A DNA stretch of 64,000 bases from Rarobacter incanus (GCF_006715765.1 NZ_VFNV01000001.1:2418001-2482000), one strand, 5' to 3'; positions 9,593 through 53,433 are shown, counted from the first letter of the stretch. Made by a program: numbers and translations. The notes: a model not told the origin generated them from the sequence alone.

Positions 9593-9606
9593 GGCTACTG
9601 CTTCCT

Positions 9607-12102: not shown

Positions 12103-13580
12103 TCGGCGTCCTCCTGCCCAGCTAGCGCGACGAGACCGAGCTCCGTGATCCGATAGCGCTGGTCTCGACTCGTGGGCTTGTCAGGGAGTGTGCGCTCCAG
12201 CAGCCCTGACTCAAGGAGCGGCTCGATGTGTCGACGGAACGCGCGAGTCTGGTTCGTGATGCCCAGCGCCGCCATGAGATCCGCGCGGCTCGCTGGATCA
12301 ACTCGGACCTGACGAAGAACTACAACCTCGGTCGACGAGAGGCTGGCTACCGGCCGACTTGGCGCCTCATCTTGGTGCCTTAGTGCCTGATCTTGGTGCT
12401 TCGCATCGGCACCAAGACCCGCGTCCGGTGCATGGGACGGCACGTAGATCGTGAACCGAAGCCGATCCATGACCTCTTCAACGCGCGGCTCAGGCAGCCC
12501 AGCCTCAGCGATCTGGTCATAGACGCGCTGGACACCGGTGCCCCACTGCTCCATGATCCCGGCCTCACGGAAGATGCGCGCGAGCGAGGGATTCCGCAGC
12601 CGAGAAGCGCGTCGCATCGACTCCACCGTCATCCCCGGCAGGAGCAAGCCAGGGCTGTCGACCTGGATTCGGTCGTCGTAGAACCCGACCCGGATGGGCG
12701 TCCCGCGTTCGGCATAGCTGGCATGCACCAGAGCGTTGACGACGACCTCGCGGATCGCCTCGACCGGGATCGAGTACGAATCACGTCGGCGCACTTCACC
12801 GAACACCGCCGACTTGTAGGCGTGCTTGAGGAGGAACTCCATGACCCGATCCACGGCAAGCGGCATCGGGCCGTGAATCTCGGTCTGATCGAAGATGTCG
12901 GTCCCACTGGGACCCCGCAACCGGCCGCACTGGACCCACGCGGACGGCAGAAATCGGGCGGGGTCGGGGCACGCGGCAAGAAGGCCCGCATACGTCGGGA
13001 CGATCTCCTCTCCCTGCTTGACTGCGAGCCCGAGCGCGACGAGATCATCGACATCGGTACTGCGCCCGCGCAGCTCCGACAGCGCCTTCAGATCGAGATC
13101 ATCCAGCGAGGCTCGTGGCTCAGGCAGGTCTTCGAACGCGACACCACGCGCGCTGCGCTCAAGTTCTGCCACCAGCGCAGGGTCGGCTTGCCGCGTCGTC
13201 GATCCTAGTCGAACATACACGCCGTGCTCGGGGCCTTGATCGGTCATGAAGTGCGGACGTCGGGTGCTCAAGGGCACGTCCACCACGAGGATTGTCGCCT
13301 CGCCAATGGTCACGAGGTCGATGGCCGGCACCAGCTGCGGCGAGATGCGATCCGCGATCAGACTGGTGATACGTTCTTCCTCCGTGAGGGGGTCGGCCAC
13401 GCCGACGACCGTGCCGTCGTCGTCGACTCCGATGACCAGGCGGCCACCTGCGGAGTTTGCGAAGGCGACAATCGTGCGCAACGGCTTCGTCGGTGACGAC
13501 AGGTCACGCTTGAACTCCAGGGTCTTCCCTTCAAGCGCCTGGAGGCGGCCGTTGGCATCAAGTTTCCCGAGCTGCTCCAT
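12099..13580 (-). CDS. AlbA_2/Schlafen-type DNA-binding protein with GHKL-like ATPase domain (BREX accessory)
   Basis: The 493-residue protein starts with an AlbA_2/Schlafen-like fold: LEFKRDLSS near residue 22, AFANSAGGRLVIGVDDDG near 40-57, and YVRLGSTTRQAD. The middle resembles the HATPase_c_4 domain of COG2865 proteins (IREVVVNALVHASYAERG, DRIQVDSPGLLLPGMT, WGTGVQRV). The end is a winged-helix region (VDPASRADLMAALGITNQT). Proteins of this type are often annotated as RecG-like or transcriptional regulators. Genes of this family are known inserts in BREX islands, but their role is not established; nucleic-acid sensing or regulation is plausible. It lies 3 bp downstream of the membrane protein gene and is fused by ATGA to pglZ, so it belongs to the operon rather than being a passenger. 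Confidence 0.8.
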   Translation of the reverse strand: MEQLGKLDANGRLQALEGKTLEFKRDLSSPTKPLRTIVAFANSAGGRLVIGVDDDGTVVGVADPLTEEERITSLIADRISPQLVPAIDLVTIGEATILVVDVPLSTRRPHFMTDQGPEHGVYVRLGSTTRQADPALVAELERSARGVAFEDLPEPRASLDDLDLKALSELRGRSTDVDDLVALGLAVKQGEEIVPTYAGLLAACPDPARFLPSAWVQCGRLRGPSGTDIFDQTEIHGPMPLAVDRVMEFLLKHAYKSAVFGEVRRRDSYSIPVEAIREVVVNALVHASYAERGTPIRVGFYDDRIQVDSPGLLLPGMTVESMRRASRLRNPSLARIFREAGIMEQWGTGVQRVYDQIAEAGLPEPRVEEVMDRLRFTIYVPSHAPDAGLGADAKHQDQALRHQDEAPSRPVASLSSTEVVVLRQVRVDPASRADLMAALGITNQTRAFRRHIEPLLESGLLERTLPDKPTSRDQRYRITELGLVALAGQEDAE

Positions 13581-13583
13581 TCG

Positions 13584-14381
13584 TCATCGCCTCCCTGTCC
13601 ATCGCGCTCGACTACGCCGCGCTCTCATGGTTGGCTTACGTCGCGCTCCTCGAACGCTCACCGACTCGCTAAGGCCTTCTAGGCGCGAGTCGACTCTCTC
13701 GACGGCTGCGGCAATCTTCCGTTGCGCTTCGGTCTGCCATTTGAGCTGATTCCAGTTCTTGTTGTCGTAGTCGTCATCCGCGAGTGCGTCTGCCCATTGA
13801 CCGAGGTCGAGAACCATCTGTTCGTCCTCGCCGAATGGCTCGCCGCGTGGGTCACGGTAACGTGCGACAACGGTGTACCGCTTGGGCATCAAGTCGTCCG
13901 ACCAATAGTCTGAGGCGCGGCCCACGGAGTAGCGCACCGTGCGACCTGGTGCGAGGAACGGGATCACACCGTTGACCAAGTTCCGTTCGATCGCCTGCCC
14001 ATGCCGCTCGTCGAGCGCTTGCGGCTTCGGGTCCCAGGTCAGCTCTACGTTGTGAGCCGGCGCTTGTCCGATGTTCCGTACCTCAATGAGCAGAAGGATC
14101 GACTTGAAGGCAAAGTCAACGACAACGTAGGGACGAGTCAGTTCCCGCTGAGCTTGCTGGTGAGCGGCTAGCTGGGCGAGCGCGACGGATGCAGCGACGG
14201 CAGCGATGAGAAACGTGAAGAAGGTCCAGATGGCTTGCCAATCTGATCCATCCGGCCATGGCCAACGGAGAAGCTTGCCAGCGAGCCAGGTGACAACGAA
14301 GAGGATCGCGACTGTCGCCAATCCCCAGGCAGCGCTCTTGCGCTGGGACCACGGGCGTCCTTGCTGAGGATCGTTACTCAC
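13584..14381 (-). CDS. Membrane protein of the BREX operon, function unknown
   Basis: The 265-residue protein has two hydrophobic helices near the N-terminus (about residues 17-36 and 48-68, AAWGLATVAILFVVTWLAG and FLIAAVAASVALAQLAAH). A cytoplasmic or outward beta-rich domain follows (PYVVVDFAFKSILLLIEVRNIG...), then a charged helical C-terminus with many Arg/Lys. I recognise no enzyme motif. The start codon lies inside the last codons of pglX (8-bp overlap), so it is translationally coupled to the methyltransferase. Membrane anchors occur in several defence systems as effectors or sensors. Here that is only a possibility. Confidence 0.75.
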   Translation of the reverse strand: MSNDPQQGRPWSQRKSAAWGLATVAILFVVTWLAGKLLRWPWPDGSDWQAIWTFFTFLIAAVAASVALAQLAAHQQAQRELTRPYVVVDFAFKSILLLIEVRNIGQAPAHNVELTWDPKPQALDERHGQAIERNLVNGVIPFLAPGRTVRYSVGRASDYWSDDLMPKRYTVVARYRDPRGEPFGEDEQMVLDLGQWADALADDDYDNKNWNQLKWQTEAQRKIAAAVERVDSRLEGLSESVSVRGARRKPTMRARRSRARWTGRR

Positions 14382-17300
14382 GATTGGCCTCCAAGCCTGC
14401 GATCTTCTTGAGGGCCGGGTAGAACTTCGGATAGTTGGCCTTCACCCCATCATCGAGGTCGATGGCGACCTGCTGAGACGCCAGCGGGTAGAGCACGTCA
14501 TGCTCGTACTCGCTGAGTTCCACCAGCACCTTGCGGAGCCGCTCGGCTTCCTTCAGTGCCGCTGCCTTCTCGCGAGGTGTACCGTCCCCGGCTGCGAGAC
14601 GCTCCTGATGCTGGAGGTTCGCCTCCAGCTTCGACTCGAACTCGCGCAGGTACTCGTTCAGCACCGTTGAGACCGTGGACGGCGTGTAGCGGTGCATGTA
14701 GATCAGCGCGTTGAACGATCCTTTCGGGCTGGAGAACAGCCAGTAGATCGGGCGCTTCTTGTAGCGCTTCACATGGTCGTCGTAGAACCTCGACCGCCCG
14801 GCACGGGTAACGAAGTACTCCCTCAGATTCTTGACCCCAAGCGACTCCTCAACGAACCGGAGATTGTCCTCGAAGTGCTGCTCTCCGAAAGCCGCTCGCA
14901 GGAACTGGCGAAGACGCGCCACGATGTCGTCCTCGAACCAGTCGCCATCGACGATCGGGAGAACGTTGTCTGCATCGGGAGCGAAGGTCGGCGCCGACAC
15001 CTTCGCGATGTAGTCCTGAAGCGTTGCCCCCTGGTCGGCGAGGATCAAGCCTGGCTTGTCGAGGCTGTATCGACCGAACATGCAGCCGACTGCATAGGAC
15101 ACAAGCTCAGAGATGGAGTCTAGATTCTCTAGCTCCAGATACTCTTCGATCTTCTTGCCAGGGCCGTAGCGAAACTCAACGTTTCGTGCCAACGACACAC
15201 GATGGAGGGCCACATCGACATCCACTTCGTGCTCAAGTCCGTAGGCTTCAGCGGTCGTCCGGTTGTTCTCACTCTCGCGGGCCTGCTGAGAAGACGCGAA
15301 CGTGGCCCAATGCGCTGAGACTGCGGCCGCGCGATCACCGAGATCGATTTCGGCTGGTTTGCCCTGATCTATGCGCAGACTCGAACCAACGAAATTCCAT
15401 GATGTCTCGAACGAGTCCCAGTCCATCCTTGCCGCACTGATCATCTGTTCGACCGTCGCGCGCGGCGCTCCTGCGCAAACTGGCAAGCCAGCCATCTCAT
15501 CCACGTTGTAGTTCAAGGTCGGAGAGGTGGCCTTCAGTAGCGATAGCGCGACAATTGAATTTGCGAATCCAATAACGTCTGCACTTATCTCCTCTGACTC
15601 TATGAAGAGTCCTCTTGATGCGTTGTCGAAGGCAAACCCTACGGGGTACATGCGGAACGCTGGGTCTCCCGAACTCACCGCAGTCATGCCGATGTGCTTT
15701 CGGAAAAAGTACTCGGTGTTCTGGGGACGTGCGCTGGGGTTCTTGCGAACCGAGTTACCATTGGACTCCCAGTCCAGTACGAACTCCTGATTTCCGTACC
15801 ATTTGCGGAAGTCTCCACCTTTGTCGTATGGAATCCAACGGGCACTGCGCTCAGCCAACTGCGCTGCCGACTCGCAGTTGGTAGCCAGTCGGTTGCCGCT
15901 GACTTCCCACCATCTCCGCAGGTAACGATTAACATCACCAGTTTGGAGTCCTACCTTCGGTTCGGCGATAGTTCGAAGAGGTTTCCCCACCGTGAATGCG
16001 TTTCGCATGGCACTGGAAAGCCAGTAGGCGAATGGATGCCCTGGAACCTTTGCAAAGTCACCGGGGTTGACACGGTGCATGTGCCGCTCCATGCCATCAG
16101 TCGTTCCGCTAGGCTCCGCCTTCCTTCTTCGATCCGCCTGTATGATCTCAAGCGCCTTAGGTCCTTGAACATTCGGGCCAATGAAGTCAGACAGCCGCAC
16201 GAAGGCTGCGGATACGTCCCGATGGCCACGCTGTGCCACGTACGCACAGATCGGCACTGTCGCTCCATCAAAGCCCGAATACTCCAACTGAATTAGCGAC
16301 ATGACTGTTTCTCGCTCGACCAGACGCTTCCGTATGGGCAGATAGGAGCCGATGAACATCCAAACGAATGGGGTCATAAGCCCCACAAGCCCACCGGCGA
16401 CCGCTGCGTCAAGGCATCGGTGAATAAACATCGCGAACAAGTCGGACTTCGAGTCCGCATACTCCAACTTGGCAAATGCGGCGAGGGCTGGGTCCATATT
16501 TTTCGACCCCATGTAGGGCGGGTTCGCCACGACCACGGCATAGCGGGGTGTGAGGAACTCGGCCTGCCGCAAAGCGCGCCTAGCCCGCTGGATGATGTTA
16601 TCGAAGATCAAGTCGCCCTTGTCGTCAAGCGTCGACACATGTTGGGCAAGTCGGAGGCTCAGGTCTGGATCGGGGTCGATGAGGGCACCGAGCAAATCAG
16701 CTCTAGCGAACTGGTTCCAGAACGCTTGCTCTGCGTGCTTGTCGCCGCCTCTGGTGACGAGGGAGTCCAAGTCGTCGGGACTAAACGCAATCGGACCAAT
16801 GACGCAGATGTTCGGCTCGACCCGCCTGCTGAGGAACGTGCGCTGCCTCGCACGAGCCTTCATTGTGAGCGCGAAGGCTGCCAGTGCGCCTGCGCGCGGG
16901 TCGATCTCGGTGCCGTAGATGTTGTGGGTAAGGATCAGTTCGGGAATCTCGGAGGGTGCGTAGCCTTCTTCTTCGTAGATCGCGTAGAGCAGGTCGAAGG
17001 CGTAGGTGAGCATGTGGCCGGAGCCGCAGGCAGGGTCGATGATCTTCAGTTCCTCGGGGCTGCTGATCGTGAGGAAGTCTGTCTCCTCATCAAGAGGGGC
17101 GACGTAGTAGTCCATCTGCTCGATGAGCCGAGAGGACGGATGGTTGAGCATCCAGAGGCGGCCGAGGGAGTTCTCGACGAGATAACGAACGATCCAGTGT
17201 GGGGTGAAGAGCTGGGTCGCGGCGGGAATCTCAGCGGTGCCTGCCTTCTTGCCTTTCTTAAATCCGGCGAAGACTTCGTCTTTCCGCTCAGCGATGTAGA

Positions 17301-17931
17301 ACTGGTAGAGCCAGCCGATGACCTCAACGTCGCGGCAGACCTCTGCTGTGAGCGTCGATGCGGCCTTGCTGAGGATGGAGTCCGCGGCGAGAAGGTTCGC
17401 GGGGATCAGGAGTTCGGTGTAGTCGCCCTCGCGCTCGAACATGAACGGCATCGAGCGGTTCCAGTAGCGGCAGTACTCAGCGAGTAGCAGGGTGTAGGCC
17501 TCACCCTGGGCGTCTGTACTGGGGCGGGTTCCGTCGAGGAGTCCAGTGATGGCATCGAGGGTGCGCTTGTTGCTGACAACAGCGGGGTCGATGCTGCCAC
17601 GCTTGGCATCTGCGAGTATCTCTGGCTGCCCGGTCTGCTGGCCGTGGGCTGGCGAGACCACGCCAACACCGGTGTAGCCGTTGGCGTCCATGAAGCGGAG
17701 GGCGATGATGCGGTTGAACCAGGTGTAGGCGACCTTGTCGGCCACAGCATCCTTGCCCTTGGCTCCGCCGCCGGCGGCCGCGATGTCGCGTTCGAGCATG
17801 GTCACGGCGCGCTGGTTCTCGACTCGCTCCGGCGATGCTGGTGCGAGCACGGCGGTCAGGCGGGCGCTGACCTGAGTGATGAGCTCGCGTCTGGCCCACG
17901 TGCCGAAGCTCTTCAGCGGTGAGGTTTCCAT
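14374..17931 (-). CDS. pglX: BREX adenine-specific DNA methyltransferase PglX
   Basis: The 1185-residue protein matches the length and order of type 1 PglX. Motif I DPACGSGHM is near residue 298 and the N6-adenine motif NPPYMGS near 470. A long C-terminal target-recognition and helical region follows (KRPIYWLFSSPKGSFNALIYMHRY). PglX methylates an asymmetric site on host DNA, marking self; unmodified phage DNA is blocked. It follows brxC after a 12-bp gap and overlaps the membrane protein gene. No frameshift or missing motif is visible. Its target sequence cannot be read from the protein by eye. Confidence 0.95.
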   Translation of the reverse strand: METSPLKSFGTWARRELITQVSARLTAVLAPASPERVENQRAVTMLERDIAAAGGGAKGKDAVADKVAYTWFNRIIALRFMDANGYTGVGVVSPAHGQQTGQPEILADAKRGSIDPAVVSNKRTLDAITGLLDGTRPSTDAQGEAYTLLLAEYCRYWNRSMPFMFEREGDYTELLIPANLLAADSILSKAASTLTAEVCRDVEVIGWLYQFYIAERKDEVFAGFKKGKKAGTAEIPAATQLFTPHWIVRYLVENSLGRLWMLNHPSSRLIEQMDYYVAPLDEETDFLTISSPEELKIIDPACGSGHMLTYAFDLLYAIYEEEGYAPSEIPELILTHNIYGTEIDPRAGALAAFALTMKARARQRTFLSRRVEPNICVIGPIAFSPDDLDSLVTRGGDKHAEQAFWNQFARADLLGALIDPDPDLSLRLAQHVSTLDDKGDLIFDNIIQRARRALRQAEFLTPRYAVVVANPPYMGSKNMDPALAAFAKLEYADSKSDLFAMFIHRCLDAAVAGGLVGLMTPFVWMFIGSYLPIRKRLVERETVMSLIQLEYSGFDGATVPICAYVAQRGHRDVSAAFVRLSDFIGPNVQGPKALEIIQADRRRKAEPSGTTDGMERHMHRVNPGDFAKVPGHPFAYWLSSAMRNAFTVGKPLRTIAEPKVGLQTGDVNRYLRRWWEVSGNRLATNCESAAQLAERSARWIPYDKGGDFRKWYGNQEFVLDWESNGNSVRKNPSARPQNTEYFFRKHIGMTAVSSGDPAFRMYPVGFAFDNASRGLFIESEEISADVIGFANSIVALSLLKATSPTLNYNVDEMAGLPVCAGAPRATVEQMISAARMDWDSFETSWNFVGSSLRIDQGKPAEIDLGDRAAAVSAHWATFASSQQARESENNRTTAEAYGLEHEVDVDVALHRVSLARNVEFRYGPGKKIEEYLELENLDSISELVSYAVGCMFGRYSLDKPGLILADQGATLQDYIAKVSAPTFAPDADNVLPIVDGDWFEDDIVARLRQFLRAAFGEQHFEDNLRFVEESLGVKNLREYFVTRAGRSRFYDDHVKRYKKRPIYWLFSSPKGSFNALIYMHRYTPSTVSTVLNEYLREFESKLEANLQHQERLAAGDGTPREKAAALKEAERLRKVLVELSEYEHDVLYPLASQQVAIDLDDGVKANYPKFYPALKKIAGLEANRE

Positions 17932-17943
17932 GCGTTTCGTCTC

Positions 17944-20900
17944 CTACAGCGCGATGCGCTTATCGTCGTTGAGGGCCTGGACCAGTGCGGTGCGCAGCGC
18001 ATCAAGGTAGCGATCGACGTCCTCCTCGGTTTCCAGCACGCCGCTTATGCCGGTGGCGCTGATGCTCTTGACTGAGACCGTCTGCTTCTTGATCTGTGCC
18101 GGGGCGTGCTCATCGCCTCCGTTCGCATCGTTGCTGCGAGGAGAGGCTGCGAGCTGATCGAGGATGGCCGGGTAGGTGCGTTCCTCGAAGGTGTTCGCGA
18201 TCTCCCGGACGACGGCAATCTGGTTCTCCCGATCGATCCGGTCAAGGATCGCGCTGACCTTCTGAGTCACGCTGTGCTGCGCTCCGTCGGTTGCTTCGAG
18301 ATAGATCGTGCTGGTCTGAAGCGGTGCCCATCGGGAGTCGATCTCCAGGAGTGCTCCGTCGCGGTTTGCGACGAGCGCCTCGTCGATGCGGGCTTGGAGT
18401 TCGACGGTGGCGGCCTTGAGCTTCGTCATCCGGTTGCCGCGGAAGGCCTGCGGGTCGGCGAGGAGCTGCGCCACATCCTGGCTGCTGCCGGAGGGCAGGT
18501 AGTTCAGGTTGCTCGCGTTGCTGGCGAGCAGCTCGGTTGCCTCGTCGTAAATCTTGCGCTGGGCACCGCCGAGGAATGCCTGGATCGGGTCGATGAGGTC
18601 GCTCTTCGCATCGAGCAGATCGTCGGCGATTGCGAAGTCGGTCAGGTACCAGTCGTCGGGCTTGCCAACGACGGACTCCAGTAGAGCAATCGGCGCATCG
18701 AGCTGAGTCACGAATGGGTATTTCGAACCGCTGACTCGCGCCTTGAGTTCCTCGCACTTTGCCCGAAGGCGTTCGCTGGTGTGCCGGGCAAGTTCGAGCG
18801 GGTCTTTCGGCACGGCAGGTTCGTCGAAGAAGTCCGTGCAGAACGCGCGCAGTGCCGCAATCTTGCGCTGGTCGAAGGTCTTCTGCGGAGCGACGACGGC
18901 GTGGGAGTGCTTCTGCGTGTTGCGCAGTGCGGAAGCGACTTCGCTGCGCTTGAGGATGTTCGAGTCGACAGTGAGGGTGATCTTCGAGGTGCCGACGAGC
19001 CAGGCTGTGACGCACTCGATGGAGGCCAGGTCCCAGCCGTAGGGCTTGGCCTGGAAGTGTTCGATGATCTTCTTGACGGTCACCTGCTCGCCGAGCCGAT
19101 CACGCTGCAACAGGTACGACAGCACCTCGTCTGCCGGTGCTGCGAGCGCATGGATCGAGGCGTCGTCGATCATCCCGGACTGGTCGGGGTTCGCGAACCC
19201 GGCAACTTGCTGCTCGGAGTAGGTCCGCCCGTCAAGGAGGCTCAGCTGGGTGTAGGTCCGGGCAATGAGGTCTTGGAACCCGTCAGTGATCCGCGTGACC
19301 GCATCCTGTGACGCCACACTGAGGTCCGCAGCATTGATCACGAGATCGGCACGTCCCACGGCCCGTCGGATGCGCTCGACAAGTTCCTTCTCCCGCTGAG
19401 CGTTCTGAGTCGCCTTGGCGCGCAGAATCTGCTCCTCGACCGGAGACAGCGAGCTGGTCTGCTTGCGTTTGGTGTACTTCTCGGTCTTGATCAGCAGCCG
19501 CAGGTCGGCCAAAACACGGTCGTCGGGAGCGAGGATCACACGGAGCTCGTCCTTGCCTGCCGAGTGCATCCGAATCTCTTCCGGACCGTACGGGTATTCG
19601 GGAGTGATGAAGTGCAGTGAGAGTTCGCGCTGCTGGCCGAATGCCTGGTCGTCGAGCTTGTACCCGAACGGGAAGTCCTGCCCGTTCTTGGTGTAGCGGA
19701 GCTTGGAGGTCTTGACGACATCGCCGGACAGAATCTTGTTCAGCCGGGTGGAGACCTCGGAGGAGTCAATCTCGACGTTCTTGATCTCTTCCTCGATCAC
19801 CTGCTCTTCGTTGGTCAGGTACTCGTAGACGTTGCCGTTGCGCTGCACGTAGGTCTGCGTCTCCAGCAGCGTCAGCGCTTCCTGAACCTGCTTGGACAAC
19901 GCGGGCAGATCGAGCCCGAATCGGTCGTAGACCAGCACAGTCAGGTTGCGCGGGGTGGCCTGGAAGCTCTCCACGTACTTCACCAGGAAGAGCGCCTTGA
20001 GTAGCCGCACCGCGAGCATGGTGACCAGTGAGCCGCTGTCGGGGAGGTCACGCTCGGCGCGGTCGATCGAGCGCTGTGCTGCGGACTTCAACGACGCGCG
20101 GATGCCGGCGAACATCGCGTCAAAGGTTGCCAGTGACCCGATCTCGACATCGCCGATGTCCTTGGCGACCTGCTGGACGACGCCGAGCATGGAGCGTTCT
20201 CCGACGGAGCTGTTGCGGCCCTCGAACACGTTGTGGTCGGAGATGCCCTCGATCGCGGCCTGGAACAGCGGGAATTGATAGCTCACGAACGGGTAGGTGC
20301 CGACGAAGTGGGCTTCGTCGGTGAAGTTTCGGTAGGTCTTGGCGCCATCAACGAAGTCGAACAGGGTCTTGAAGTTCGCTGACTCCTGCGCGTAGACCGC
20401 TTCGAGCACCTGCGTGCCCTTGTCGTTCTTCTCCAGCAGGCGCTTGCGGATGACCTCTTCTACGTCGGCGGAGGTGAGTTTCACGCGGGTCTTGAACCGC
20501 GCCTGAATCTTCGAGAAGTCGTAGCCCTGCTGCTTGGTGCGGTCGCCGACCACCTTGTCCATGTCCTCTTGCGAGGTCACGAACACCCAGGCCCGTCCGC
20601 CGCACTTCGTGTTGAGGGACTCTGCGATCGTCTGAAGGTTCAGCATCAGATGGGTGTTGGAGCCGATGAACTGCCCGACCTCATCGACGAAGAAGTTGAG
20701 CCGGTAGCCGGCAGGCTGCTTGTTCAGCCAGGCGCGCACCTCGTCGGCGAAGTCCTCGATCGACACCGAGTAGGTGTCCTGATAGGTCTTCAGGATGTCG
20801 GGCGCGGTCGTCGCGTCCAACCCGGTGATCTGTGCGTATGCCTCGTTGACCTGGCGTCGCACAGTGGGGAGCCCGAAGCTCGGCCGGCGCTCTACCCAGT

Positions 20901-21474
20901 CCCGGCCCGACACCTCAAGGAAGGCGTCTTTGAACGCGTCGAGCTGGCCCTCGTCGTCGAGTTGCCGCTCGAACCGCGCGATGTGACCCTGGTCGCCGTA
21001 GTAGCCGCGGGACTCGTCGAATACCTTCACGAACACGCGTAGTAGGGCGTCGGTCTGATCCTTGCTGATCAGGGTCGCCTTCTGGTCGATGTTGAACAGG
21101 AGGCTCTTCGCCGGGATGCGGTCAGCCTTGTGGAGCAGCGGCGGCAAGAACGCATCCGTCGCCTTGGCGCGGAAGCTCTCCGAGACACGCTCGCGAGGGA
21201 AGTTGTCACCCTCCACGTCGCCGAGGAGGTGTGCGAGCATCTTCAAGAGGTGCGATTTACCGGAGCCGAAGAAGCCCGAAATCCACACGCCGTTCGCGTT
21301 GGTGTAATCCGTGTACGCCTCAAGCAGCAACTCCAGCCCCTTGGCGGCCTCGTTGGTCAGGACGTACTCGTCGACCTCGGTGCCCAGGTGCGCAACGTCG
21401 TCGGCCTTGATGACGCCCTCGATGGGCCGCTGGACGTCCTTGGCGAAAATCTCGGTGAGCTGCATAACGGTCAC
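17944..21474 (-). CDS. brxC: BREX P-loop protein BrxC
   Basis: The 1176-residue protein has Walker A GFFGSGKSH at residues 67-75 near the N-terminus, a Walker B-like LNFFVDEVGQFIG near residue 260, and a long helical C-terminal part, as in type 1 BrxC/PglY-type ATPases. It is one of the core proteins needed for both methylation and restriction and binds other BREX subunits. The start overlaps the brxB stop by 4 bp. Length and motif spacing look intact. Confidence 0.93.
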   Translation of the reverse strand: MTVMQLTEIFAKDVQRPIEGVIKADDVAHLGTEVDEYVLTNEAAKGLELLLEAYTDYTNANGVWISGFFGSGKSHLLKMLAHLLGDVEGDNFPRERVSESFRAKATDAFLPPLLHKADRIPAKSLLFNIDQKATLISKDQTDALLRVFVKVFDESRGYYGDQGHIARFERQLDDEGQLDAFKDAFLEVSGRDWVERRPSFGLPTVRRQVNEAYAQITGLDATTAPDILKTYQDTYSVSIEDFADEVRAWLNKQPAGYRLNFFVDEVGQFIGSNTHLMLNLQTIAESLNTKCGGRAWVFVTSQEDMDKVVGDRTKQQGYDFSKIQARFKTRVKLTSADVEEVIRKRLLEKNDKGTQVLEAVYAQESANFKTLFDFVDGAKTYRNFTDEAHFVGTYPFVSYQFPLFQAAIEGISDHNVFEGRNSSVGERSMLGVVQQVAKDIGDVEIGSLATFDAMFAGIRASLKSAAQRSIDRAERDLPDSGSLVTMLAVRLLKALFLVKYVESFQATPRNLTVLVYDRFGLDLPALSKQVQEALTLLETQTYVQRNGNVYEYLTNEEQVIEEEIKNVEIDSSEVSTRLNKILSGDVVKTSKLRYTKNGQDFPFGYKLDDQAFGQQRELSLHFITPEYPYGPEEIRMHSAGKDELRVILAPDDRVLADLRLLIKTEKYTKRKQTSSLSPVEEQILRAKATQNAQREKELVERIRRAVGRADLVINAADLSVASQDAVTRITDGFQDLIARTYTQLSLLDGRTYSEQQVAGFANPDQSGMIDDASIHALAAPADEVLSYLLQRDRLGEQVTVKKIIEHFQAKPYGWDLASIECVTAWLVGTSKITLTVDSNILKRSEVASALRNTQKHSHAVVAPQKTFDQRKIAALRAFCTDFFDEPAVPKDPLELARHTSERLRAKCEELKARVSGSKYPFVTQLDAPIALLESVVGKPDDWYLTDFAIADDLLDAKSDLIDPIQAFLGGAQRKIYDEATELLASNASNLNYLPSGSSQDVAQLLADPQAFRGNRMTKLKAATVELQARIDEALVANRDGALLEIDSRWAPLQTSTIYLEATDGAQHSVTQKVSAILDRIDRENQIAVVREIANTFEERTYPAILDQLAASPRSNDANGGDEHAPAQIKKQTVSVKSISATGISGVLETEEDVDRYLDALRTALVQALNDDKRIAL

Positions 21475-22070
21475 GGTTCCTGTTCCAGAATGTTCTTGGC
21501 GCGGTAGTACTGGTCGTCCTTCAACCTGCCGAACAGCACCAGCGATGAGCCGAGCGTGTCGGACTGCTCGTAGCGGCCGGGGAAGAACATGAGCATCGGC
21601 CGGCCCACCACAACGCTCTGCAAGTTGTTGAGCACGTTGTGAGACCGGATGTAGGGGAAGACCTCGCCGATCCCGGTCAGGAACACGATGTCGAACTCGC
21701 CGTCTGCGAGCCGCTCTCGGATCGCGGGAGCCAGGTGCTGCTGCGGGTTGAGCATCGACTGCAGCATCTCCGTGAACTCGGCCTTGTCCAATTCGGGCTC
21801 GACCTCAAGCACTTCATCCCAGTCGCCGCGCTGCTTGAGGACGTCGACCGACAGGTCGTAGAGGTTGATCTCGCGTACCTCGATGCCCTTGCCGGCCAGG
21901 CGGTTCTTGACGCGCTTCTTGGCCTTCGCCACATCAAGCGCGTGCTCCGGCTCGTAGGGGTAGATGAAGAACGGGACCTCGTTGGACAAGCCCTCCATCT
22001 TCAGGAAGCGCTCGCCACTGAGCACCGCGAACAGATGCTCCTCCTGGCGCGAAAGTTCATGGGGCGTCAC
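21471..22070 (-). CDS. brxB: BREX protein BrxB (DUF1788)
   Basis: The 199-residue protein matches the DUF1788 family by size and patterns: IYPYEPEHALDVAKAKKRVKNRLA in the first half, IVFLTGIGEVFPYIRSHNVLNNLQ and MLMFFPGRYEQSDTLGSSLVLFGRL near the end. It is a small core subunit of BREX thought to bridge other components. Both ends overlap neighbours (brxA and brxC) by 4 bp. Confidence 0.92.
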   Translation of the reverse strand: MTPHELSRQEEHLFAVLSGERFLKMEGLSNEVPFFIYPYEPEHALDVAKAKKRVKNRLAGKGIEVREINLYDLSVDVLKQRGDWDEVLEVEPELDKAEFTEMLQSMLNPQQHLAPAIRERLADGEFDIVFLTGIGEVFPYIRSHNVLNNLQSVVVGRPMLMFFPGRYEQSDTLGSSLVLFGRLKDDQYYRAKNILEQEP

Positions 22071-22687
22071 AACGAGACCTCCTTGATGTCGCGGGCCGGG
22101 AGGTAGCGGAGGTCACTTGGTAGCTGAACGTCGAGTGCGTCCCGGACACGCTCTGACAGGGCCGCGTTGACGATCTCGCTGCCTGCAAGCAGTCCAGCCT
22201 CGGTCAGCATGCGGAACACGGTCGACCGGAGCTTCTGCAACGTCGAGTCCTTCACCTCTACGAGCTCGGGGTGCCACAGCGCCTTCCCACGAACGAAACT
22301 GTCGAAGTCGTCGTATCCCAAGGTGGGAGTGAGTAGGAGGAAGCGCTCGCGTACTACCTCTTCCGCGAAGTCGCCGATGAGCGCGTAGCGACGGCATGCG
22401 GCGACCCACATCAGGTGACCGCGTTCGCTGGGGCTGGCGTCTCGCAGCAACTCCAGCTCCGGGTCCGTGAGCACCGCCAATCGCTGCGCGACCTCGCGCG
22501 CCAACCGGAATCCGGACGAGGCGGTTCGAGCCTGGAGCAAGTTCTTTGAACGGAGCCGGTCTCGAACCAGACCCCAGTCACGAACTTCCAAGAAGAGCGG
22601 CGCGGCGATCACCGCCTCCCGAGTCAGGAGGGCACCACTGGTGAAGGACAGGGCGTATCGGTCCTGTCCCTGAGACGTGATGCTCAT
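22067..22687 (-). CDS. brxA: BREX protein BrxA (DUF1819)
   Basis: The 206-residue all-helical protein belongs to DUF1819 (patterns SFTSGALLTREAVIAAPLF, FLLLTPTLGYDDF and LRYLPARDIKEV). It is the first core gene of the operon. BrxA from other species is a small DNA-binding protein that supports BREX defence. A strong GAAGGAGG lies upstream of the ATG at 22687. It overlaps brxB by 4 bp. A possible promoter lies in the 89-bp gap behind the HTH gene. Confidence 0.92.
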   Translation of the reverse strand: MSITSQGQDRYALSFTSGALLTREAVIAAPLFLEVRDWGLVRDRLRSKNLLQARTASSGFRLAREVAQRLAVLTDPELELLRDASPSERGHLMWVAACRRYALIGDFAEEVVRERFLLLTPTLGYDDFDSFVRGKALWHPELVEVKDSTLQKLRSTVFRMLTEAGLLAGSEIVNAALSERVRDALDVQLPSDLRYLPARDIKEVSL

Positions 22688-22776: not shown

Positions 22777-22977
22777 TCACCCTGGCGGGGAGGGTTCGGA
22801 GGCGGCGGCAGCGCCGCCTCGTCGCACCCAGTCGTCGATCTCGCTGGCTTGGAACTTCCAGAGGCGTCCGACCTTGTGGGCGGGCATGGCCTTCTCGGCG
22901 ATCCAGGTGTAGACGGTGTCTTTGGTAACCCCGAGGTGGGCGGCGATGTCGTCAGCGGACAGCCACGGCTCAGCCAC
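22777..22977 (-). CDS. Small excisionase/AlpA-type helix-turn-helix protein
   Basis: The 66-residue protein starts with GTG and contains a MerR-like HTH_17 domain: LSADDIAAHLGVTKDTVYTWIAEK, with the KVGRLWKFQASEIDDWV wing. Such proteins act as excisionases or as small transcription regulators. It is the first gene of the BREX strand and stands 89 bp ahead of brxA. I recall similar proteins next to BREX and restriction loci in actinobacteria, which favours a regulator of the defence operon. An excision factor for the ICE is the alternative. Confidence 0.75.
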   Translation of the reverse strand: MAEPWLSADDIAAHLGVTKDTVYTWIAEKAMPAHKVGRLWKFQASEIDDWVRRGGAAAASEPSPPG

Positions 22978-23113: not shown

Positions 23114-24250
23114 TCAGCGTGGGATGCGCACCTTGAGCCAGGCGGTCACTGCGTTCTGCCACCAGTCGGGGTCAGCATTCCAACAGAGGGTGTAGCCGGC
23201 GTCGAAGGTCTCCAGTTCGACGAGCTCCGGGCGGGCGTCTCGGAGTGCTTGTGAGAGCCGGATCGGCACGGAGTCGTCTCGGGTGCCGTGGAGGATCAGG
23301 GTCGGCGTGTTGAGCTCTACGGCTCGGGATGTCCAGTCGAAGGAGCGAAGTGGGATGCGGCCCGGCAAGCCGACGGTGCGAGCCAGCGGGGCGAGGGTGA
23401 GCCACGGGATCGCGAGGTGCCCGGCTGCTGCGGGCAGTCCGCTTTGGACGCAGTTGGCCTTGATGACCTCGGCCCAGTTGAGGACTGGTGAGTCGAGGAC
23501 GAGCGCGGCAATCAGCCCCTCGTGTCGAGGCCGGTCGGCCAGCTGAAGGGCGATCGCGGCACCCATTGACTAGCCGAAGAGCACGATCTGCTGGGCTCCC
23601 CGTCGGACGGCGTATCCGATGGCCTCGTCAACGTCGCCAGTCTCGGTGTGCCCGAGGGTAGTTCGGCCGGTGCCGACAGGTGGCCCTTCTGCGGTGTTGC
23701 GGTAGCTGACGACCAGGGAGGTGTAGCCGAGTTCGGTTGCGGCGCGGACGCCGCGGAGGGTGCCGGCACGGGTGCTGCCGAGGCCGTGGATGTGGATCGC
23801 CCAGGTCGAGGGGTCGCCGTCGATGCGCCAGGCCGGGCACGGCCCTGCGGGGGTAGTGATGCTGATGTCGCGTGCGTGGAGTCCGGCGTCGGCTGGGCTT
23901 GCGTAGTAGATGCCGCTCCAGGAGGCACGGTCGCCGACCTTCGGAGTGAGGCCAGGTGTGGTTCCTGTGATCCTGCGCGCGACGCGAGTAGGTCCGCGAT
24001 CGACGATCTCTGCGGAGAGCTGTGCCCAGCCGCCGTGATCGAACCAGAGGTTGTAGATGCCGTCGGCGGTGGTCTGGCCGGTGCGGTCGAGCACGATCAG
24101 GTGGGCGTCTTCGTCGTGCTCGATCCCTTGGATCGTGAGGTCGAACTTCCGTGGACCGACTGGCGCGGTCAGCTGCCGGGCGATCATCCACCCGAGACCA
24201 GAGACGGCTGCTGTCGCGATCCCTGCTCCGACGGTGAGGTGGCCGATCAT
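23114..24250 (-). pseudogene. Alpha/beta hydrolase with amber stop in the nucleophile elbow
   Basis: One reading frame of 379 codons is interrupted only by TAG at 23570-23572. Upstream: N-terminal hydrophobic segment, HIHGLGSTRAGTL (oxyanion-type HG) and QQIVLFG. Downstream: SMGAAIALQLA, LILHGTRDDSVP (acid) and a late region where the catalytic His would be expected. The stop replaces the X of the G-X-S-X-G elbow (G-stop-S-M-G); TGG (Trp) to TAG is a single change. The protein would be a membrane-anchored serine hydrolase. Its start overlaps the MAB_1171c-like gene by 4 bp, so it was the last gene of the XRE-ImmA operon. Unless amber codons are read through, it is inactive. Confidence 0.8.
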
Positions 24251-25254
24251 CGGGCACCGTCCTCTTCGTCTACGCGTGGCGGAGCGACGGCTGTTCGGTC
24301 GTGTCCGAGGAGGTGGCTCTCGGCGCGTTCGAGCAGTGTGCGTTCGGTTCGGCTGGTGCGGAACGTGATGCGGGGGTCGATCATCGCGTCACGGATTTCG
24401 ACGATCTCTCGGTGCAGTCGTCCTTCGGGGTCTTCCGTGCGCGCGGCGGGCGGGTCTGCTTGGCTCAGACCGGGCCGCAGATGCGTCGCTCGGTTCCAGA
24501 GTGACTCCAGCTGTGCCGCGAGGGCGGATGTGCGCTTGTCGCGCAGGTAGTGCTGGGCGCGGCGGACGGCGGGTTGTGCAGCGAATCCGGCGCAGAGGAA
24601 CAGGAACGTCAGGAGCGACAGTGGCCCGTAGGCGGGTTGTACGGCGTGCATGAGGTCGAGCCGGCCGGTGACGTGGGCGATGTCCATGACGATCACGGCG
24701 AGGCAGAGTGCGACGCCAAAGGCTGACCCGAGCGTCAGCAGTGCTGCGGGCAGGCGTTGGATGCCGGTGCTGTGCCGGTATCGCCGTGCGGCGAGAGTCA
24801 GCATCGTGGCGATGACGATGCCGCCGTAGCTGAAGTTGATGATCGAGTACGCGGCAGTGGCGGGTTGAGCGCCGAGATCGCTCATGAACTGCGTGGTCGT
24901 CGGGCCGCGGTCGATGAACAGGAACGTGATGGTGATCGAGAGGAGCGAGATCACGAGCATGGGGACGCTGACGGCGGCGCGGACGAGCCCAGGCCGGTAC
25001 TCGCCGGACTTCATGACGCCACGTCCGAGGAAGAAGAGTCCGGTCATCAGCAGGGCGTCCGCGAGTAGGGTCGCGAGGCTCGTGCGGCCGAGGAGCGGAT
25101 CGACGACTGTATAGATGCCATCGACGCCCAGCGTCATCGCGATGGCGATGGCGAGTGCGGCGTAGGTGATGTTTCTGTCGGTGCGTTTGCGACGGAAGAT
25201 GAGCAGGCTCGCCACGAGCGCCCACATGAGCGTCGCGACGAGCGTCTGGATCAT
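24247..25254 (-). CDS. MAB_1171c-like multi-pass membrane protein
   Basis: The 335-residue protein has about seven hydrophobic helices in its first 230 residues (LVATLMWALVASLLIF, ITYAALAIAIAMTLGV, LADALLMTGLFFLG, and so on). A soluble C-terminal part follows (LESLWNRATHLRP, LHREIVEIRDAMIDPR, RTLLERAESHLLG) that resembles the DUF6545-type tail of MAB_1171c family proteins. The family is called a putative transporter, but evidence for transport is thin and a sensor role is equally possible. It overlaps the ImmA/IrrE gene upstream and the hydrolase downstream by 4 bp each, so the three work together or are at least co-translated. Confidence 0.7.
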   Translation of the reverse strand: MIQTLVATLMWALVASLLIFRRKRTDRNITYAALAIAIAMTLGVDGIYTVVDPLLGRTSLATLLADALLMTGLFFLGRGVMKSGEYRPGLVRAAVSVPMLVISLLSITITFLFIDRGPTTTQFMSDLGAQPATAAYSIINFSYGGIVIATMLTLAARRYRHSTGIQRLPAALLTLGSAFGVALCLAVIVMDIAHVTGRLDLMHAVQPAYGPLSLLTFLFLCAGFAAQPAVRRAQHYLRDKRTSALAAQLESLWNRATHLRPGLSQADPPAARTEDPEGRLHREIVEIRDAMIDPRITFRTSRTERTLLERAESHLLGHDRTAVAPPRVDEEDGAR

Positions 25255-25715
25255 CCGAAGACCTCCGAGTAGGCCGATTCGGCGAACATCGCCCCTCGGA
25301 TGCCTGCGGCGAGCCGGTCGGCGAGGGACTCGGCGGCGATCTCGGTCTCGCTGTCGAGGTCTTGCCGAGAGAGCAGGCGTCCTCGGGTGTAAGGCGGGAT
25401 GTTGGGCAGCAGCGCCTCGCCGACGGTGCAGTCATCGCCGTCGCAGTGGCCGAGGATCATGTGGGCCAGCTCGTGGAGGACGAACTGCTGGCGGTGGAGT
25501 GCGGAGTCGCTGCGGGCGTGGATCACGATGTCTTCGGCGTCGGCGACGAACCAGAGCGCGCAGAGGCCGTCGTGGGTGTCGAGGTCTGCGAGCTCGACGA
25601 TGCGCAGCCTGCGGTGCCGCCGGTCCTGGACGGTGTGGCGGAGGTCGTCGAGGGTGAAGGTGTTGCCGAGCTGAAGGCCCGCGACGGCCGCCGATACGGT
25701 CTGTTCGATGTTCAC
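25251..25715 (-). CDS. ImmA/IrrE-type metallopeptidase
   Basis: The 154-residue protein carries the zinc motif HELAHMILGH (near residue 80), typical of ImmA/IrrE peptidases, and shows no fused HTH. In ICEBs1, ImmA cleaves the repressor ImmR and releases the element from repression. Here the XRE gene lies 61 bp upstream on the same strand, so that protein is the likely substrate. It is followed with a 4-bp overlap by the MAB_1171c-like membrane protein. Role in induction of the ICE is inferred. Confidence 0.82.
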   Translation of the reverse strand: MNIEQTVSAAVAGLQLGNTFTLDDLRHTVQDRRHRRLRIVELADLDTHDGLCALWFVADAEDIVIHARSDSALHRQQFVLHELAHMILGHCDGDDCTVGEALLPNIPPYTRGRLLSRQDLDSETEIAAESLADRLAAGIRGAMFAESAYSEVFG

Positions 25716-25776
25716 GGTTCGCCCCTTCTCAGTGGGGAGCAGGGACCGGTGGCGGCTCCGTGTCGCGCGGTACCGG

Positions 25777-26208
25777 TCAGTGCTCAGGCATGTGTGTCAT
25801 TTCCTCGTCCAGGAACTTGGTGATGGCGTGGAGGGCTTTCGGCGAGATGTCGCCGAGGGTGCGGGCTGCGTAGGACTTCACCTTCGCGGCACGCATGGAC
25901 CGAACCAGATCGAGCTGCGCGGAGACCTTCTCGGGGGTAGCGGCACCGTCCTCGCCGAGCAGGAAGGCGGCGTCCACGTCGAAGAACGCGGCGAGCCCCT
26001 CGAAGACGGCGGGGTCTTGGACGTAGCGGTGGCCGTTGACCATGTACGTCCAGCGCGACCGCGACAGGCTGGTGCCTCGTTCTTGGAGGTAGTCGGCGAT
26101 CTGCGAGTAGGTCGGTTCGGTGCCGGACTCGGCGACGGCGACGTCCATCAGGAGCCGTAGACGTTTGGCGAGGTCTTCGGCCGCAGCCTGGCTCTCGTCT
26201 TCGGTCAT
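25777..26208 (-). CDS. XRE-family regulator (ImmR-like)
   Basis: With the start at 26208 (MTEDES) the protein has 143 residues; GGGAAGGGGG lies upstream at a good distance, and the longer version starting at 26259 has no better signal. It contains a helix-turn-helix region (TYSQIADYLQERGTSLSRSRWTYMVNG) and AVFEGLAAFFDVDAAFLLG, as in XRE proteins of actinobacterial elements. The C-terminal half is helical. Four TTGnGCATGCnCAA boxes lie between its start and the divergent ArdC-like gene, so it probably represses both directions, and ImmA downstream could remove it. Confidence 0.82.
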   Translation of the reverse strand: MTEDESQAAAEDLAKRLRLLMDVAVAESGTEPTYSQIADYLQERGTSLSRSRWTYMVNGHRYVQDPAVFEGLAAFFDVDAAFLLGEDGAATPEKVSAQLDLVRSMRAAKVKSYAARTLGDISPKALHAITKFLDEEMTHMPEH

Positions 26209-26270
26209 AGTGGCTGACCCCCTTCCCTTCGCGACGGGCAAGGCATCGATGTGATCCACCCGGAGGGTGG

Positions 26271-26375
26271 TTGTGCATGCTCAACCGTACTCGTTGAGCA
26301 TGCACAAATCAAGGCTTGCGCATGCTCAACGATGGATGTTAGAACAGGACTCCGGGACATTTTGAGCATGCTCAA
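26271..26375. promoter_or_regulatory. Array of four TTGnGCATGCnCAA operators
   Basis: Four 14-bp palindromic boxes occur at 26271-26284, 26294-26307, 26316-26329 and 26362-26375. Boxes 1 and 2 form a perfect 15-bp inverted repeat (26271-26285 and 26293-26307). Centre-to-centre distances are 23, 22 and 46 bp, close to multiples of two helical turns, so dimers would line up on one DNA face. The rest of the 26209-26520 gap holds the regulator's ribosome binding site and the leader of the ArdC-like gene. Confidence 0.8.
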
Positions 26376-26520
26376 TGCTCGGTTCCGGTCTCGGCTCGGG
26401 CTGCCTCAAGGAGGTGAACGATGTCCAGCTCACGGTCCGGGCGCGGGTGTTCGCGCCTACCTGCCAGGTGTACCGCCGCGCGCAACCTTGGCGCGGCCCG
26501 CCGAAGAGGAGGCAGGAGCA

Positions 26521-27599
26521 TGGCATCGAACGAGGACCCCCGCGCGGTGCGAGAGGCGAAGCTCGACGAGCTGCACGAGAAGCTGACTGGCGCGGTCGAG
26601 TCGCTGGTCTCGGGCGACGACTGGCGCCAAGCGCTGGCCTTCGCGGCACGGTTCCGGTCGCGGTCGTTCAACAACACGATGCTGATCTGGGTGCAGCACG
26701 AGGCGGCGTTCGAGACCGGCCGGGTGCCCGAGCCTTTCCCGACTCTGGTTGCCGGGTACCGGCAGTGGCAGGGCCTCGGTCGGCAGGTGATGAAGGGTCA
26801 GCCGGGCTACATGATCTTCGCGCCCGTGACGGGCCGGTTCGCCTCGTCCAATCCTGCCGATCCGAACTCCTGGCGTCGTTTGGGGCCGCGAGAGAAGCAC
26901 AAGGTCAACGAGGTCGTGCGCTGGCGGATGGTCGGAGCGCGCCCAGCCTACGTGTGGGATGCCTCGCAGACCGACGGTGAACCGCTGCCAGTGCCGCCCG
27001 CTCCGACGCTGCTGGAAGGCGAAGCACCTTCGGGGTTGTGGGAGGGGCTGGCCGGGCAGATTCACGGCGCGGGGTTCGAGGTGCTGCGGGTCCCGCACGA
27101 GGGGATCATCTCCGGCGCGAACGGCATGACCGACTACGAGGCGCGCACGGTCGCGGTGCGGGAGAACATGGACCCTGCCGCGCAGGTCAAGACCCTCGCA
27201 CACGAGCTGGCGCACGTGCTGATGCACGATCCCGACGACGAGGAAGCGCGGCAGCATCGCGGCATCCGCGAGGTCGAAGCCGAGTCCGTCGCGCTGATGA
27301 TCGGTGCCGCGCACGGCATGGACACCGCCGGGTACACGATCCCGTACGTCTCGACCTGGGCCGCCCGCGTGGACGGCCAAGAGCCCGTCCAGGTGGTGCA
27401 GGCCACCGGCGAGCGGGTGCGGAAGACCGCGCTGGCGATCCTCGACCAGCTCGACACGCTCCAGGTCGGCGACGGCACCCCGCCCGGCCTCGAACGCGAC
27501 ACCCCCAGTCCGCGAACTTCCCGTGCGGCTGCGCATGGGGTGGAGGCGGATCGTCCGCGTGTTGCGCCGGTGCCAGCGCTGGCAGGGCGAGGGCTGTGA
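26521..27599 (+). CDS. ArdC-like protein: ssDNA-binding N-domain and zinc metallopeptidase
   Basis: The 359-residue protein has an N-terminal ArdC-like region (WRQALAFAARFRSRSFNNTMLIWVQH, GYRQWQGLGRQVMKGQPGYMIFAP) and a C-terminal metallopeptidase domain with HELAHVLMHD near residue 226 and a downstream glutamate (EVEAESVALMI). ArdC proteins bind single-stranded DNA and protect incoming plasmid DNA from restriction. An in-frame ATG at 26421 has a near-perfect AAGGAGGTG, but it would add 33 Arg/Ser-rich residues unlike family members. The ATG at 26521 also has GAGGAGG and fits the family. It is the first gene of the plus-strand ICE block and probably the first gene needed after transfer. Its stop overlaps the Prim-Pol start. 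Confidence 0.82.
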
Positions 27600-28531
27600 T
27601 GCCTGAAGCATTCGATGTCCTGGCGGCGCTCATCCGTGTGGATCGCGAGCCAAGCCTGGCGTTCGCGGCGGGCGCCCTCGCGGCGGCCCGCGTGCCCGTG
27701 TTCCCGTGTCTGGTCGAGGGGAAGCGTCCGCTCACCCGTCGTGGGTTCCTCGATGCGAGCAGCGACCCGGAACAGGTCGCGGCGTGGTGGTCGCGCACAC
27801 CGGACGCGAACATCGGCATCCCGACGGGCGCTGCATCGGGCGTTGTCGTCGCCGATGTCGATGTCCATGGCCCCCACGATGGCCGCGCGGCATTCGAGCG
27901 CGCCTCCGAGGCGGGGCTCGTCGATGGAGCGGGTCTGCTGGTGCGCACACCCACCGGTGGCGCGCACGTGTACTTCCCGGCGACACAAGGCAGGGAGCAG
28001 CGGTCGTGGCAGGCAGCTGACGTGGGCGTCGATTTCCGGGGCGACGGCGGCTACATCATCGCTCCGCCTTCCCAGCGAATCATCGACGGTCATGTGAAGC
28101 GCTACGAGGTCGCCGATATCGCCGCGCACTCGGTCGGGACGGTGGACGCGGCCCGGCTGCGGGACTTTCTCGACCCGCGCCCCGTCGCCCCGTCGCGCGC
28201 CAGCAGCGGCTCGATGGATGTGGATGCTGAGCGGTTGGCGGCTTGGGTCGCGGGGCGGGGTGAGGGTGAGCGGAACCGGGGCCTGTTCTGGGCCGCTTGC
28301 CGCCTTGCCGAGAATGGCGTCTCGGCCACGGACGCGCTCGATGCGCTGGGTTCTGCGGCACACTCGGCGGGTCTGGGTGATCGCGAGATCACCACGACCG
28401 TGCGCTCCGCCTACCGAGCCACCCAGCCCGCATCGGAGGCCACGTCCGATAGCCGGAGCCAGAGCGCGGGTCGCTGGTTCGGCCGCGCGGCGAGCCCACC
28501 CTCCGCAGCCTTGGGGAGGGCCGGGCTGTGA
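27599..28531 (+). CDS. Bifunctional DNA primase/polymerase (Prim-Pol)
   Basis: The true start is ATG 27599 (TGATG overlap with the ArdC-like stop), giving 310 residues. The Prim-Pol domain shows VFPCLVEGKRPLTRRGF, WWSRTPDANIGIPTG, VVVADVDVHG (catalytic acidic pair), RTPTGGAHVYF and VDFRGDGGYIIAPPS. A helical C-terminal part follows (GERNRGLFWAACRLAENG). It could prime lagging-strand synthesis of the transferred strand or replication of the excised circle. No helicase domain is fused. The end overlaps the next gene by 4 bp. Confidence 0.88.
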   Translation: MPEAFDVLAALIRVDREPSLAFAAGALAAARVPVFPCLVEGKRPLTRRGFLDASSDPEQVAAWWSRTPDANIGIPTGAASGVVVADVDVHGPHDGRAAFERASEAGLVDGAGLLVRTPTGGAHVYFPATQGREQRSWQAADVGVDFRGDGGYIIAPPSQRIIDGHVKRYEVADIAAHSVGTVDAARLRDFLDPRPVAPSRASSGSMDVDAERLAAWVAGRGEGERNRGLFWAACRLAENGVSATDALDALGSAAHSAGLGDREITTTVRSAYRATQPASEATSDSRSQSAGRWFGRAASPPSAALGRAGL

Positions 28532-44148: not shown

Positions 44149-44498
44149 GCGCCCGCCCCGAAGCATCCCGGCACGGTGCAGGCCGAGTCCAGGCACGGGG
44201 CGCTCTCATCGACGGCCAACGTCACGTCGATGAGCGCTGTCAGCGCCGCGGTCAGGTGCGGGTCCGCGATCTCGTAGCGCGTCTGCCGGCCCTCGGGCTC
44301 GGCGACCACGATGCCGCAGTCGCGCAGACACGTCAGATGGTTCGAGACGTTCGAGCGGGTCAGTTCCAGCCCGCGTGAGAGCACCGCCGGGTAGCTCGGG
44401 CCGTCCAGCAGGGTCATCAGGATCCGGGAGCGCGTCGGGTCCGCCATCGCCCGGCCGAGCCGGTTCATGACGTCGAGACGCGAAGTAATAGTCAGCAT
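44145..44498 (-). CDS. cmtR: ArsR-family metal sensor, CmtR-like
   Basis: The 117-residue winged-helix protein shows ADPTRSRILMTLLDG, LTRSNVSNHLTCLRDCG and a Cys-rich tail (APCLDSACTVPGC). The two cysteines in the recognition helix (CLRDCG) match C57 and C61 of mycobacterial CmtR, which senses Cd2+/Pb2+ together with a C-terminal cysteine; here the tail has three. It should repress itself and the ATPase and release DNA on metal binding. The ATG at 44498 has no ribosome binding site, and a TATAGT -10 sits 6 bases upstream, so the message is probably leaderless. Its stop overlaps the ATPase start. Confidence 0.88.
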   Translation of the reverse strand: MLTITSRLDVMNRLGRAMADPTRSRILMTLLDGPSYPAVLSRGLELTRSNVSNHLTCLRDCGIVVAEPEGRQTRYEIADPHLTAALTALIDVTLAVDESAPCLDSACTVPGCFGAGA

Positions 44499-44534
44499 GC
44501 ACTGACTATACACTGGATGCTGACTCGTTGTCGA
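44488..44534 (-). promoter_or_regulatory. cmtR promoter (leaderless) with overlapping operator
   Basis: On the minus strand, TCGACA (44529-44534) and TATAGT (44505-44510) are 18 bases apart, and the ATG follows the -10 by 6 bases. An inverted repeat ATAGTCAG-N6-CTGACTAT (44488-44509) covers the -10, the start site and the start codon, a position suited to autorepression by CmtR. The -35 lies in the 3' end spacer of the recombinase-like gene. Confidence 0.7.
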
Positions 44535-53421: not shown

Positions 53422-53433
53422 GCTACAGCCACC
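53357..53433 (-). tRNA. tRNA-His (GTG anticodon), ICE attachment site
   Basis: The cloverleaf reads from 53433 to 53360 with acceptor arms GTGGCTG/CAGCCAC, the additional 5' G (-1) and C73 characteristic of tRNA-His, anticodon loop TTGTGGT and encoded CCA (53359-53357). The serine recombinase frame ends inside it at 53421. Its 3' end points toward the ICE, so integration regenerates the tRNA 3' end. Confidence 0.95.

Follow-up and report, generated by a model that had tools for sequence, protein, structure and literature searches.

A four-gene XRE–ImmA–membrane protein–hydrolase module as a possible extracellular-signal switch in an actinobacterial ICE

Introduction

How actinobacterial ICEs of the kind considered here decide to transfer is, to our knowledge, poorly understood. 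The question is raised by a locus of Rarobacter incanus (positions 23114–26375 of the 64,000-nucleotide stretch NZ_VFNV01000001.1:2418001–2482000, hereafter the window), in which genes for an XRE regulator and an ImmA/IrrE-type protease are followed by those for a seven-helix membrane protein (7TM) and a membrane-anchored hydrolase. In other ICEs, ImmA-type proteases inactivate XRE repressors, and accessory proteins raise their activity (PMC6540685, PMC10233336). Here, we ask whether the module could be such a switch, and what part its two membrane-associated products might play in it.

Results

Gene content of the module

The four genes lie on the minus strand and run from 26208 down to 23114 in the order XRE, ImmA/M78, 7TM and alpha/beta hydrolase. 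The original prediction of this gene set, with the last three genes overlapping by 4 bp, was confirmed in the window sequence: ImmA overlaps 7TM and 7TM overlaps the hydrolase by 4 bp each, while a gap of about 60 bp separates XRE from ImmA. The overlaps are kept in 72 (ImmA/7TM) and 59 (7TM/hydrolase) of 74 relatives, and dN/dS values of 0.075, 0.27, 0.27 and 0.29 by a simple NG86 estimate indicate purifying selection on each of the four.

The XRE gene (25777–26208, minus strand) encodes a predicted repressor of 143 aa when read from the ATG at 26208; a GTG at 26259 is an alternative start. Over the HTH and the C-terminal helices the protein is related to EspR (profile against PDB 3r1f, residues 8–122, E = 7e-4), a match that denotes homology only and says nothing on function. 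Identity among 39 relatives is 65–98%, and the C-terminal helices are strongly conserved as well. The adjoining gene (25251–25715, minus strand) encodes a COG2856/M78 metallopeptidase of the ImmA/IrrE type, a predicted anti-repressor of 154 aa with a GTG start, and the pairing of the two genes is conserved in relatives. The protein scores 15.8 bits against the Pfam Peptidase_M78 (PF06114) cut-off of 22, and a PDB search returned no convincing match. The HExxH motif is present as HELAH, and the metal-site residues (HExxH and the downstream acidic residues, including E) are invariant in the sequences of all relatives.

The third gene (24247–25254, minus strand) encodes the 7TM protein, a predicted sensor of 335 aa. 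It scores just over the cut-off of the NCBIfam family MAB_1171c (NF042915; 103.3 bits versus 100) and has a DUF6545-like tail (PF20182; 23.7 bits versus a gathering cut-off of 24.4, E = 7e-5). The loop charges alternate as for a protein with the N-terminus out, seven helices and the C-terminus in, and the tail, which is predicted to be cytosolic, carries an invariant VEIRDAMID motif. An AlphaFold2 model of moderate confidence (pLDDT 80, pTM 0.72) is an all-helical bundle. Its fold matches were weak (E > 0.01) and mainly to seven-helix receptors, and no useful match came from searching the PDB with the profile of the 7TM protein. Databases name the MAB_1171c family, and with it the 7TM protein, a putative transporter, a function that the protein may indeed have; in M. 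abscessus, where MAB_1171c was treated as a transporter, its knockout led to less biofilm (PMC8707978).

The last gene (23114–24250, minus strand) is a single frame for a membrane-anchored alpha/beta hydrolase, interrupted by a lone TAG (23570–23572) directly before the nucleophile Ser. In addition, Tyr (at approximately 23192–23194) replaces the catalytic His, which is present in 69 of 69 relatives at that position. The hydrolase had been predicted to be broken, as it is, and the second lesion favours a real loss of activity over a single sequencing error. Since the frame stops before the Ser and the His is Tyr, the window copy lacks the Ser-Asp-His triad and is a pseudogene of its family. 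The gene is intact in almost all relatives, which have both an invariant triad (S227, D324 and H352) and the alpha/beta hydrolase fold. When an intact relative was modeled, an N-terminal helix and a beta-rich part were seen along with an esterase-like alpha/beta hydrolase, the closest fold being that of the Pyrococcus Pf2001 esterase, followed at lower rank by acylpeptide hydrolases and monoglyceride lipase. The N-terminal charges are ambiguous as to the orientation in the membrane and the side on which the active site lies. Full-length chromosomal relatives, usually in single copy, were found in 197 of 376 genomes of the order (including L128, L129, L130 and L132). With such a copy in about half of these genomes, the hydrolase may be a recruited housekeeping enzyme and need not be signalling. 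Within the window's own family, no chromosomal relative was listed, the ICE copy aside.

Conservation in other actinobacteria

A single scan of a genome collection with the 7TM protein yielded 80 loci at 49–87% identity, in hosts that included Microbacterium, Arthrobacter, Cryobacterium, Leucobacter, Agromyces and Brevibacterium. The complete set of four was present in 74 of the 80, in the same order as in the window; the loci without the full set were mostly explained by contig ends, insertions or frameshifts. Several of the 80 are near-identical (e.g., L026–L032), and the number of independent events is therefore smaller. Because this search had started from the 7TM protein, a second one was run with an XRE profile in the 376 genomes of the order. 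Of its 20 matches, 14 had a 7TM relative within about 2 kb and six had no 7TM nearby. Far from being unlinked elsewhere, the four families are thus linked in actinobacterial elements, as the original prediction implied, both in the 74 loci and in permuted copies on plasmids and chromosomes.

The permuted copies have the order ImmA–7TM–hydrolase–XRE on conjugative plasmids (MPF_T) of Arthrobacter and Paenarthrobacter, on a Citricoccus plasmid typed as non-mobilizable and in a further genome (L134), and the order ImmA–7TM–XRE–hydrolase in two others (L131 and L133). In L131 (2285–6387), the module is followed by a second XRE paralogue. That the four genes recur together in three different orders and in several contexts is the strongest indication that they form a functional unit. 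One of the XRE matches without a nearby 7TM, in genome G445, belongs to an ICE remnant (L125:4732–6227) that has lost 7TM by a deletion, so that ImmA now runs into the end of the hydrolase; the remnant retains one copy of the operator described below, and BREX genes lie beyond it. More distant XRE–ImmA–7TM loci are without this hydrolase, and ImmA and 7TM are still adjacent in them. In 13 of these loci (L088, L090, L092–L094, L096, L099, L101, L103, L109, L110, L112 and L113), a PAP2-like membrane protein of 200 aa is clustered with the core.

The control region

Four perfect copies of TTGNGCATGCNCAA, starting at 26271, 26294, 26316 and 26362 and mostly spaced by 22–23 bp, lie between XRE and a divergent ArdC gene; the sequence is absent elsewhere in the 64 kb window. 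The operator-like palindromes are TTGTGCATGCTCAA (26271–26284), TTGAGCATGCACAA (26294–26307), TTGCGCATGCTCAA (26316–26329) and TTGAGCATGCTCAA (26362–26375), the end of the fourth being the right end of the locus as first delimited. Where the region was available, at least four sites were present in 67 of 75 relatives (four in 65 and five in 2) and three in 6. Up to 2 mismatches were allowed, and the background frequency was 0.009 per 250 nt. The spacing in relatives is mostly 43–47, 22–23 and 22–23, and in an alignment of the control region the operator-like sites are the main conserved blocks. Together, the gene set kept in 74 loci, the low dN/dS and the exact array of four palindromes show that the module is real beyond chance.

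The sites coincide with two inferred promoters. That of the XRE operon (26284–26312, minus strand) would consist of a −35 element TTGATT (26307–26312), a 17 bp spacer containing the second palindrome and a −10 element TACGGT (26284–26289), which is TATATT or TAGATT in relatives. That of the transfer operon (26316–26345, plus strand) would have the −35 element TTGCGC beneath the third palindrome, an 18 bp spacer and an extended −10 element, TGTTAGAAC, which is conserved in relatives. A consensus promoter scan flagged neither, so that both are placed by their conservation footprint only. In the plasmid versions, a palindrome search found neither an operator of the TTGNGCATGCNCAA type nor a clear alternative array.

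Genomic context

Support for placing the window in an ICE comes from a TraG-type coupling protein and from a serine integrase gene that overlaps tRNA-His at its end. The integrase end inside tRNA-His (window 51685–53432) probably marks the boundary of the element; no second att-like copy was found for the tRNA-His region. Genes for a P-type ATPase and a tyrosine recombinase also lie inside the ICE (window 42253–47710), perhaps as a nested insertion. The divergent transfer operon opens with an ArdC-like protein (26520–27599, plus strand; ArdcN 31.5 bits and M78 33 bits, both over cut-off) and continues with a Prim-Pol-like gene (27597–28531, plus strand, start approximate), identified through a relative (L021:3780–4784) that is Prim-Pol, and with a ParB-like gene and onward. 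Transfer-operon genes occupy the divergent side in 73 of 80 loci: ArdC is kept at the same place in 62 and a divergent Prim-Pol is present in 72, standing first where ArdC is missing. The module, with its four operator-like sites and divergent transfer genes, is located at the control point of the transfer operon, which ties it to the ICE more strongly than the original prediction did.

On the other side of the module, a small excisionase/AlpA-type HTH gene (mad1-like; 22777–22977, minus strand) is the only gene before a BREX cluster on the same strand (window 4004–22687). The cluster comprises brxA, brxB, brxC, pglX, pglZ and brxL; an AAA_4-like gene lies within it, and brxL is followed by a SIR2-HerA pair. 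In L012 (Enemella), BrxA/B/C (8562–13002) are 98–100% identical to window 17944–22687, compared to 77% for the 7TM protein, which indicates that defence cargo moves between elements independently. In L008, L021, L024, L036 and L064, the hydrolase is followed by an HmaA-like helicase, an HKD+Snf2 protein, and type IIG/II and type I restriction proteins. The site downstream of the hydrolase is a defence hotspot. About half of the relatives have the mad1-like HTH gene after the hydrolase despite their differing cargo; it could be a cargo regulator or mark an insertion site.

Discussion

Our preferred reading, to which we assign a probability of roughly one half, is that the module is an ImmR/ImmA-type ICE switch in which ImmA is gated by a 7TM receptor and the hydrolase tunes the receptor's ligand. 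The EspR-like XRE would bind the four palindromes and repress both its own operon and the divergent transfer operon, a step strongly implied by their conservation and very likely correct. ImmA would serve as the dedicated anti-repressor protease of XRE, which family precedent and linkage make likely. We consider it somewhat probable that the 7TM protein (N-out/C-in) senses a signal and, by way of its conserved cytosolic tail, permits ImmA to cleave XRE; it would then take the place of the accessory factor, and its gene overlaps that of ImmA. Loss of XRE would derepress the transfer operon, from ArdC, Prim-Pol and ParB-like onward, and the switch itself. Finally, the membrane-anchored serine hydrolase might make or remove the ligand, for which a lipophilic molecule of the ester or acyl type is the likeliest candidate, although we put this step at slightly below even odds. 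A lipid-like signal is made somewhat more likely by the PAP2-like neighbor in the distant loci, which is a lipid-type enzyme by family. If so, the dead hydrolase of the window copy would mean that the signal setting is altered or that another enzyme is used.

The sequence establishes the parts, their linkage, the operators and the lesions, while cleavage of XRE, sensing and the ligand are inferred. The parts fit sensing and relay: a 7TM protein of receptor-like topology with an invariant cytosolic motif, an ImmA, and an XRE facing four operators. Against the switch reading count the putative-transporter name, the weak fold matches, the chromosomal hydrolases, the PAP2 loci, the lack of this operator in the plasmid versions and the six XRE matches with no 7TM nearby. 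A rival explanation is a plain ImmR/ImmA switch that responds to DNA damage or intracellular cues, with 7TM and the hydrolase co-transcribed for transport, envelope modification or entry exclusion rather than for gating ImmA. No membrane partner takes part in the DNA-damage response of ICEBs1 and TnSmu1 (PMC6540685, PMC10233336), the chromosomal relatives of the hydrolase look like housekeeping enzymes, and the M. abscessus study took MAB_1171c, whose knockout lowered biofilm, for a transporter (PMC8707978). However, ImmA–7TM is the most tightly kept pair of the module, overlapping in 72 of 74 loci and adjacent both in the distant hydrolase-less loci and in all of the permuted copies. So close an association with ImmA would be surprising for a loose passenger, and we regard this explanation as unlikely.

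Two other functions were considered for the module. COG2856–Xre pairs have been predicted to be toxin–antitoxin systems (PMC2701414), so that ImmA or the hydrolase might be toxic and XRE the antitoxin of an addiction module. However, the same survey excluded pairs of Xre and a membrane protein from the toxin–antitoxin systems (PMC2701414), the TnSmu1 study saw no evidence for such a function in the immRA pair, and the operators in the window face the transfer operon, all of which leave an addiction module improbable. Alternatively, since a single HTH gene separates the module from BREX, which begins there on the same strand, the module could regulate BREX and not the ICE. Most relatives carry other cargo (Hma-like, restriction-modification and others) while keeping the operators and the transfer operon. 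With variable cargo past the hydrolase and a constant switch with its operators, control of BREX was rejected as very improbable.

Returning to the receptor-gated switch, its presence beside the operators in a conserved form suggests that the timing of the element's movement is set by a signal from outside, possibly a lipid-like one. The module is widespread on elements carrying defence systems, and conjugative plasmids have related versions of it. Gating of ImmA by the 7TM protein would, if it occurs, provide a clear example of an ImmA-type anti-repressor under the control of an integral membrane receptor, and a function for the uncharacterised MAB_1171c/DUF6545 family; ImmA protease activation would then become a question tractable with four genes and a reporter. 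More tentatively, the 7TM receptor and a ligand-processing hydrolase could form a small-molecule (possibly lipid) system of communication or recipient sensing that controls conjugation on ICEs and plasmids, a counterpart to RapI/PhrI with a non-peptide signal, in which the broken hydrolase would be a natural signal-setting mutant. We offer this as a speculation that may well prove wrong.

No published description of the four-gene module was found in the open-licence literature, searched for the triad, DUF6545 and MAB_1171c. The chromosomal MAB_1171c (NF042915) loci share the XRE–ImmA–7TM core; they are uncharacterised, and in place of this hydrolase their next gene usually encodes a PAP2-like membrane protein. 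In IrrE/DdrO of Deinococcus, a COG2856 protease likewise inactivates an XRE repressor, but it controls a chromosomal damage regulon and is activated by zinc and redox signals without a membrane partner (PMC7907104). BlaR1/BlaI and MecR1/MecI are alike in outline, in that membrane sensing leads to proteolytic loss of the repressor (PMC9834060). BlaR1 combines sensor and protease in one protein, whereas the module is predicted to have separate genes, of unrelated families, for the sensor and a soluble protease. The closest likeness is to ImmR/ImmA of ICEBs1 and TnSmu1, where an XRE repressor and an adjacent ImmA-type metalloprotease head the ICE transfer operon, with derepression by cleavage as predicted here. 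No RapI/PhrI-type gene was identified among the annotated neighbors of the module. By analogy, the module is probably a variant of ImmR/ImmA, distinguished by its EspR-like XRE, by the 7TM protein and membrane-anchored hydrolase kept with the pair, and by its divergent operator of four palindromes.
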